Shown here one piece after another: positions 7,120 to 32,510 of a DNA stretch of 64,000 nt; position 1 is the stretch's first letter, and each line of letters opens with the position of its first letter. The notes under the pieces were generated by a model. The model made no database searches, was not told the origin of the DNA, and saw only the letters and a program-made list of their open reading frames with translations. A program made the position numbers and the translations under genes. This stretch comes from Vulcanisaeta moutnovskia 768-28 (GTDB lineage: Archaea; Thermoproteota; Thermoprotei; Thermoproteales; Thermocladiaceae). Where the stretch lies: the NCBI RefSeq assembly GCF_000190315.1, contig NC_015151.1, positions 496,001 through 560,000 on the forward strand. The letters run 5' to 3'.

Positions 7120-7215
7120 TGGAGCCCCGGCCGGGATTCGAACCCGGGAAGATTGGGTGTCTGCATTAGAAATTGATCCTGCAGCCCAACGCCTTCACCA
7201 CTCGGCCACCGGGGC
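7120..7215 (-). tRNA. tRNA-Cys (GCA) with a 20-nt intron
   Basis: The minus strand gives a 7-bp acceptor stem (GCCCCGG with CCGGGGC), a D arm, anticodon stem TTGGG/CCCAA and a T arm CCGGG-TTCGAAT-CCCGG. Between the anticodon strands lie 27 nt, 20 more than a normal 7-nt loop. Splicing at the canonical 37/38 site gives loop CTGCAGA, anticodon GCA. CTGC can pair with GCAG inside the intron, leaving 3-nt bulges as in a bulge-helix-bulge motif. The discriminator is T, the known cysteine identity base, and CCA is encoded at 7122-7120. A box-A-like CTTAAATC lies upstream near 7231-7241. Confidence 0.93.
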
Positions 7216-26383: not shown

Positions 26384-26836
26384 CTATCCTACCAAGAATA
26401 TATATATTGTTGCACTAACAGTATATGGGCTCACATTATATACAAGAACATACCAAGAACCATATCCTGGGTTAAATATGAGTAAAGCAGAACCACCACT
26501 AACGTAGCCTCCATATCCTGACCATGTATTTGCATTTATCACTCCCACAAATAAAGTCGCAGATGATGGTGACCAAGTTACATAAACCCCTAATTCTTGG
26601 CCTGAACTTAGTGTGTATGGTCCTATTAATACGCCCGTATTTGGCGGTAGTGTTGGGTCTATTCTGTGGGTTGGTGGTAATGTCTTTAGTTTTAGTGCTG
26701 TTACTTCTTTGATTATTGTTACGCCTGGTGTGTCTGGCTTTATTTTTGCTGCTTGCATTGCCATTGTTGTTCCTGCCATTAGTGCTACTACGAGTAGTAA
26801 AGCGGGTAGTACTAGTGCTAGGGCTTTCCTCGTCAT
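26384..26836 (-). CDS. secreted protein of unknown function
   Basis: About 150 residues with a Sec-type signal peptide (basic MTRK, then ALALVLPALLLVVALMAG, cut near an AMA site). The mature part ends in a beta-rich, Gly/Tyr/Ser domain (SGQELGVYVTWSPSSATLFV, SGYGGYVSGGSALLIF, YGSWYVLVYN) that looks like a small beta sandwich of the pre-peptidase C-terminal kind. The ATG at 26836 lies 26 nt below box A CTTAAAAA (minus, 26858-26866), so the ATG at 26851 is rejected. The signal-peptide part uses A/C-ending codons and the rest does not. Confidence 0.6.
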   Translation of the reverse strand: MTRKALALVLPALLLVVALMAGTTMAMQAAKIKPDTPGVTIIKEVTALKLKTLPPTHRIDPTLPPNTGVLIGPYTLSSGQELGVYVTWSPSSATLFVGVINANTWSGYGGYVSGGSALLIFNPGYGSWYVLVYNVSPYTVSATIYIFLVG

Positions 26837-27002
26837 AGGTAATATTCTCATTTAATATTTTTAAGTATTACCTCTGTAGTACTTTCGGTGTACTTTGTTC
26901 CTTATTTCTATTTTATTATTTCAATTTATAAAGAGAGTCTTTTAGAAATAGAAAATGAGAAGTAGATCGCAATTAACAGGTTGAAAGAGCTAGTCAGTAA
27001 CG

Positions 27003-27066
27003 GTTAAATCAGCACTCGGCAAATTCGTCACTTCTCTGGCAGTCGAGGTCCCTACTCATCATACTG
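27003..27066 (-). ncRNA. C/D box sRNA (2'-O-methylation guide), candidate
   Basis: On the minus strand the parts come in the canonical order: C box ATGATGA (27062-27056), 13-nt guide, D' CTGC (27042-27039), 7-nt spacer, C' GTGACGA (27031-27025), 12-nt guide, D box CTGA (27012-27009). The span of 54 nt is normal for archaea. A TATA element CTTATAAG at 27085-27092 lies 26 nt ahead of the expected 5' end. The D guide is complementary to CACUCGGCAAAU, close to the conserved ACUCGGCAAA of 23S rRNA (near E. coli 1670, from memory). L7Ae, fibrillarin and Nop5 would bind it. Confidence 0.7.
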
Positions 27067-27084
27067 CCTAAATTATTACCCTAT

Positions 27085-27092
27085 CTTATAAG
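27085..27092 (-). promoter_or_regulatory. box A of the C/D sRNA
   Basis: CTTATAAG is a near-ideal archaeal TATA box. Counting 26 nt from its centre places the start at about 27063, one base ahead of the C box at 27062. No protein gene begins there. Confidence 0.55.
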
Positions 27093-27259: not shown

Positions 27260-28393
27260 TTAGAGGGTGATTTTTAGGATTCTGTAGATTAGTGATGATA
27301 GGATTATTAGAGCCCCAATCATTACCCAACCAAACATTCCAAAGTATTGTATTGCATATCCCATGACTATACCTGCTATTGATCCTATTATTGAGGATAC
27401 GGTGAGTAAGTAACTAGTGGATTGGGCAATTAGTATTGGACTTACGAGATCATTCACAACATACAATGTCAAGAGTAGGATTAGTGTAAATGTGAAACCC
27501 ACAATAACTAGGATTATTGTTTGAGCCTTGGCAATACCCATAAGCATTGTTAATGCACCGAGGGCTACCGTTAAGTACAACAATGCCTTACGTCTCTCAG
27601 TCTTTATGGAATGCCTAAACCTATAAAGCAATGGGGTTAGGGCTAGTGGCGCTGTTAATTCAGTGATCCCTAAGTAACTACCTGCATTAATAACGAGAGG
27701 GAGAAGACCTAGGTATACTCCCCAGGGTATTGAGAAGGCTATGGATAGCATGAGAATGTCTGGGTTATTCATAACGGCCATTACCGAGACACTCTTTATT
27801 ATTACGGCATCCTTCATAGTAAAGAGAATGAGGATGGCAAGTACAATAGATGCTATGCCTAGGTATAATGCCGTGTTTTGTGTTATACCCATAGTAATTA
27901 CTGATGAAAGTAGAATCAGTGTCGTTATTGATGATAAGTAAGTAACCTGAACCCACCTAGTCAACCCTCTAATGCTCCACCAACCAAGTATTAACAGGAG
28001 TGAGGGCATTAGGTATAGCCCAAGACCCATACCTGCCAGGAATCTAAGGAGAAGTGCCGTGTGATAACTACCTGTTGTTGAGAAGATGAGAGAGAGACCA
28101 TTTAGTATCAAGCCTAGGAACATGGAGACCCTATTACCAAACCTGCTAAATAGGAGTGTAGCTGGTAATTGCATTGTAGCGAAGCCCATCATCGCGGTGG
28201 CCATGGGTATTACATAATACACGGCGTTGAGTACCACCTTCTTTATAGCCATTATATTAAACATTATTGCTGACAAGCTTAACCAATTAAACATTATTAA
28301 TGATAGACCTGCTATACTAATGCCGAGCACATAATAGGCTCTCTTGATGACTAATGCATCCAATTCCTCAATAGGCTTATTATTAACCCCCAC
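27260..28393 (-). CDS. MFS transporter
   Basis: A major facilitator of 377 residues with about 11-12 hydrophobic helices. The loop 2-3 region LLFSRFGNRVSM is a weak form of the MFS motif A, and RFLAGMGLGLYLMP matches the helix 4 pattern. The substrate cannot be read. It stands alone between the sRNA region and the radical SAM gene. Confidence 0.75.
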   Translation of the reverse strand: MGVNNKPIEELDALVIKRAYYVLGISIAGLSLIMFNWLSLSAIMFNIMAIKKVVLNAVYYVIPMATAMMGFATMQLPATLLFSRFGNRVSMFLGLILNGLSLIFSTTGSYHTALLLRFLAGMGLGLYLMPSLLLILGWWSIRGLTRWVQVTYLSSITTLILLSSVITMGITQNTALYLGIASIVLAILILFTMKDAVIIKSVSVMAVMNNPDILMLSIAFSIPWGVYLGLLPLVINAGSYLGITELTAPLALTPLLYRFRHSIKTERRKALLYLTVALGALTMLMGIAKAQTIILVIVGFTFTLILLLTLYVVNDLVSPILIAQSTSYLLTVSSIIGSIAGIVMGYAIQYFGMFGWVMIGALIILSSLIYRILKITL

Positions 28394-32449: not shown

Positions 32450-32510
32450 CATCAATGATGATGCGATGGCTGTTCAGACAATAATGACGAGTAAGGTGTT
32501 AGCTGAGACC
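32450..32510 (+). ncRNA. C/D box sRNA, second candidate
   Basis: C box ATGATGA (32455-32461), 13-nt guide, D'-like CAGA (32475-32478), short spacer, C'-like ATAATGA (32481-32487), 15-nt guide, D box CTGA (32503-32506). The total of 52 nt is typical. Box A GGTTTTAAATACC at 32418-32430 is 26 nt above the expected 5' end at about 32450. D' and C' are imperfect. The guides are complementary to AACAGCCAUCGCA and CUAACACCUUACUCG; I do not recognise the targets. Confidence 0.5.

Follow-up and report, generated by a model that had tools for sequence, protein, structure and literature searches.

A conserved minus-strand C/D box sRNA gene of Vulcanisaeta moutnovskia with two predicted guides for 23S rRNA methylation

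The analysis of a 64,000-nt stretch of the Vulcanisaeta moutnovskia 768-28 genome (the window) identified a locus which, with high confidence, can be assigned to a promoter-driven double-guide C/D box sRNA predicted to direct methylation of C1837 and G2125 in 23S rRNA. The anatomy of its sequence, its complementarity to the targets and the conservation of sRNA and promoter are shown below; its expression, its assembly into an RNP, both methylations and any chaperone role are inferred. The sRNA is an ordinary conserved member of a well-known class.

27085..27092, minus strand: TATA box CTTATAAG, with a conserved CAAGG (BRE-like side) just before it
27056..27062, minus strand: C box ATGATGA (RTGATGA), in which only R varies among the 12 genus sequences
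27043..27055, minus strand: D' guide GTAGGGACCTCGA, 13 nt, pairing with 23S CGAGGUCCC
27039..27042, minus strand: degenerate D' box CTGC, putatively assigned by alignment with CCGA/CTGA of order-level orthologues
27025..27031, minus strand: C' box GTGACGA, of which TGACGA is constant across the 12 genus sequences
27013..27024, minus strand: D guide ATTTGCCGAGTG, 12 nt, pairing with 23S ACUCGGCAAAU over 11 bp
27009..27012, minus strand: D box CTGA, invariant across all orthologues compared
27005..27066, minus strand: approximate mature sRNA as predicted from the boxes and the TATA spacing, from about 4 nt before the C box to about 4 nt after the D box
27260-28393, minus strand: upstream neighbour, a predicted membrane transporter gene (MFS-like by eye)
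26384-26851, minus strand: downstream neighbour, a gene for a small predicted secreted protein

The sRNA overlaps neither neighbouring gene. A C box (RUGAUGA), a D box (CUGA) and internal C' and D' boxes are present in the order and with the spacing of archaeal C/D box sRNAs, the D' box reading CTGC. The sequence-only reading had placed C, D', C' and D elements in this order on the minus strand, and all four were recovered, but the D' box is degenerate rather than canonical. An alternative D' box, CAGA, which would give a 17-nt guide and a GAA spacer, was considered, but CTGC was preferred because its N+5 site equals the one derived from the CCGA/CTGA boxes of order-level orthologues. In other genera the C' box takes the forms GTGGCGA, GTGAGGA and the like. 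No clear terminal stem of the sRNA was seen in the sequence.

The TATA element, resembling CAAG(G/A)CTTWWWAA, lies upstream of the sRNA in 10 of the 11 other genus genomes, and in these its CTT starts at a near-fixed distance of 30–33 nt upstream of the C box (30 nt in the window). The minus-strand promoter proposed earlier is supported. Archaeal transcription starts about 26 nt from the TATA element, and the observed distance to the C box places the start a few nucleotides before that box. One member of the genus (L020) carries the sRNA in a different context, with a weaker TATA-like element. The sRNA is predicted to be transcribed from its own promoter on the minus strand. Separately, strong conservation in 11 of 12 genus members was observed in about 120 nt upstream of the gene for the small secreted protein (window 26850-26990, minus strand), a stretch that includes TTTCAACCTGTTAATT, TTTCTATTTCTAAAGGA and TTGAAATAATAAAATAGAAATA. 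Its conservation exceeds the needs of a plain promoter, and it is possibly an operator or a leader RNA of that gene.

The sRNA core was found in all 11 other genus genomes searched (86–94% identical). The C box, both guides, the C' box and the D box are nearly invariant in the genus alignment, and variation is seen in the D'–C' spacer, between the TATA and C boxes, and in the sequence immediately 3' of the sRNA. The sRNA stretch of Vulcanisaeta sp. UBA163 (L046) is identical to that of G001, a genome of the genus. Further genera and families of the order also have orthologues, the boxes and the guides being conserved in these relatives.

The genome has a single 23S gene and a single 16S gene. 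Against its own 23S rRNA (AACUCGGCAAAU) the D guide forms 11 contiguous Watson-Crick pairs; the rRNA at this target reads AACTCGGCAAAT, and an A opposite the guide nucleotide adjacent to the D box leaves that nucleotide unpaired. The N+5 rule predicts 2'-O-methylation of C1837, which aligns with A1672 of E. coli. Complementarity of about 10–12 nt to rRNA or tRNA with a paired N+5 nucleotide, as expected for a D and/or D' guide, is thus present, and the D duplex ranks first within the own 23S rRNA in all 13 species tested. The earlier reading had named CACUCGGCAAAU as the D guide target, had located it near E. coli position 1670 and had expected methylation of the C in ACU-C-GG. Alignment of the guide with the organism's own 23S rRNA, which it had proposed as a check, yielded the 11-bp complementary site, and both the region and the methylated base agree with our prediction; the pairing, however, spans 11 bp and not 12, and the full 12-mer is absent from rRNA. 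As an exact target, this 12-mer (CACTCGGCAAAT) was rejected: in the genome it occurs only within the sRNA gene itself.

Of 398 genomes of the phylum, 63 contain the motif formed by the D guide and CTGA (TTTGCCGAGTNCTGA); the matches listed comprise 71 places, compared with 3 when the pattern is reversed as a control. Thermococcus, Desulfurococcales and other archaea (L039-L042, L044, L045, L047) have a guide, ATTTGCCGAGTNCTGA, that would direct methylation to the same C, but there it precedes the D' box rather than the D box and its partner guide is unrelated, as in a shuffled guide module. The predicted C1837 site is thus widespread, and its guide module looks mobile or convergent, as has been described for other guides (PMC4644070).

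The sequence-only reading overlooked a 23S target of the D' guide, which is added here. The duplex of the D' guide with CGAGGUCCC consists of 9 bp, one mismatch and 2 further bp, at a site 288 nt downstream of the D target. The N+5 rule predicts 2'-O-methylation of G2125, aligned with U1982 of E. coli. The duplex (-20.6 kcal/mol) is the best among all windows of the own 23S rRNA, and all 14 23S genes examined share an identical target sequence. Outside the genus, the D' guide of most orthologues has a one-base bulge in place of the mismatch, and the pairing comprises about 11–12 bases. No better conserved target of the D' guide was found in 16S rRNA. A longer gapped match, GTGGTCGGGGTGCTTAC, was set aside; it falls within the 16S portion of the rRNA locus, outside 23S, and contains a mismatch and several G-U pairs. 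The distance between the D and D' targets ranges from 283 to 1563 nt in the 23S genes of some relatives (L050, L056, L058, L059, L060), which indicates large insertions within domain IV between both sites, probably 23S introns.

The D' side is the one on which a simpler reading can be built, namely that the D guide alone is functional and the D' side just completes the RNP. The D' box is CTGC and not CTGA, the D' pairing contains a mismatch in the middle of the duplex, and orthologues of the sister genus of the same family (g4; G014 tested) keep the D guide and have lost D' complementarity to 23S rRNA altogether, G014 having an unrelated D' guide and the D' guide being replaced in L023 and L025 by an A-rich sequence without a 23S target match (by eye for L023). 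This loss implies that paired targeting is not indispensable. Nevertheless, GACCTCG is kept in nearly all other orthologues despite variable neighbouring positions, and wherever the guide is retained its duplex is the best or near-best in 23S rRNA (first in 10 of 12 guide-keeping species, third and eighth in the remaining two). We therefore regard a single-guide function as rather unlikely and retain the double-guide assignment.

In the predicted mode of action of the double-guide sRNA, the C/D and C'/D' motifs would adopt k-turn and k-loop folds to which L7Ae, Nop5 and fibrillarin would bind; genes for the cognate proteins fibrillarin and Nop5 are both present and adjacent (genome 1305465-1307030). 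The predicted sites of 2'-O-methylation are then C1837 (E. coli A1672) for the D guide and G2125 (E. coli U1982) for the D' guide. Simultaneous binding of both targets may also join them during rRNA folding, since they flank the closing helix of 23S domain IV.

The position of the two targets was read from the Rfam LSU consensus structure. In it, the 5' strand of the helix closing domain IV, which we take to be helix 61, is followed without a gap by the D target, a single-stranded segment. The D' target makes up the 3' side of a neighbouring long-range helix of 9 bp, and its end lies 4 nt before the 3' side of the closing helix. An sRNA bound to both would tie together segments separated by 288 nt; the targets are far from each other in sequence and near in secondary structure, as expected for a bridging sRNA, with the chaperone activity itself being putative. 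A chaperone role was proposed for sRNAs with such sequence-distant but structure-near targets, the candidates including Tte sR51 of Thermoproteus tenax (Dennis et al. 2015, PMC4644070).

Tte sR51 is a double guide detected by RNA-Seq; in alignment numbering of 23S, its D guide targets C1947 and its D' guide G2249, with a second D' target at 1980 (Dennis et al. 2015, PMC4644070, Table 3). Its D target is a C and its D' target a G, the same nucleotides as in the sRNA described here, and the targets are 302 alignment columns apart, compared to 288 nt here, both pairs being near in secondary structure. The alignment numbering is offset by 266 from that of E. coli at A1912 (A2178 in the alignment; PMC4644070). 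E. coli 1982 is expected near 2248-2249 in this numbering, G2249 corresponding to an offset of 267. Judging from these target positions, Tte sR51 is probably the orthologue of the sRNA in the window. A Sulfolobus ribosome cryo-EM paper contained no 2'-O-methyl data. At the level of RNA families, no Rfam family scored above threshold for the window region or for 14 orthologue loci. The sRNA shares the C/D box layout with sR35 (RF01123) but differs from it in the guide sequences, and membership in this family was rejected (21.6 bits versus a gathering threshold of 60 bits).

The location of both targets beside the closing helix and the listing of Tte sR51 among the candidates of Dennis et al. 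(PMC4644070) would also fit an sRNA that acts mainly as a folding chaperone bridging the sides of this helix, with methylation being secondary. At both predicted sites, though, the N+5 nucleotide is properly base-paired, as active methylation expects; moreover, g4 has the D guide but not the D' guide, and Thermococcus and other archaea have the former in the D' position, so that we consider a predominantly chaperone function quite unlikely. A more specific idea, offered as a speculation of low probability, is that the double-guide sRNA is a conserved Thermoproteales tool for the folding of 23S domain IV: its guides would hold the single-stranded segment that directly follows the 5' strand of the closing helix and the 3' side of the neighbouring long-range helix, the closing helix would form before this latter strand is let go, and the methyl marks would be by-products or a release signal.

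To estimate how often such a box arrangement occurs by chance, we compared the window with 200 windows of equal composition simulated by a first-order Markov model. The strict pattern (RTGATGA-N20-30-RTGAYGA-N10-14-CTGA) was present at 2 places in the 64,000-nt window and at none in the 200 simulated windows, a looser pattern having a frequency of 0.005 per simulated window. The 11-bp match of the D guide was equalled by a shuffled guide in 0.075% of trials (P about 0.00075), and for the D' guide match alone the corresponding figure is about 7%. The boxes, guides and promoter being deeply conserved and the box pattern being absent from simulated windows, a chance resemblance or an inactive relic is highly improbable.

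The window also contains a second C/D box sRNA candidate, located between two ORFs (32455-32506, plus strand). It reads ATGATGA-TGCGATGGCTGTT-CAGA-CAATA-ATGACGA-GTAAGGTGTTAG-CTGA, preceded by a TATA-like TTTTAAATA and followed by a T run. In the own 23S rRNA, the D guide of this candidate has an 11-bp match at position 1240 (TAACACCTTAC) and the D' guide a 9-bp match at position 1218 (CAGCCATCG), the two matches being 22 nt apart. In addition, a tRNA gene of 93 nt (window 7123-7215, minus strand) matches the whole Rfam tRNA model; it is longer than usual and probably has an intron or a long variable arm.

In summary, the double-guide sRNA yields two precise predictions of rRNA methylation for a hyperthermophile; its gene is without an Rfam family, and routine annotation would miss it. 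Its D guide represents a widespread module (Cm, E. coli position 1672) that appears to take the D or the D' position depending on the archaeal lineage, and the sRNA as a whole is a good test case for double guides that may bridge distant rRNA segments.
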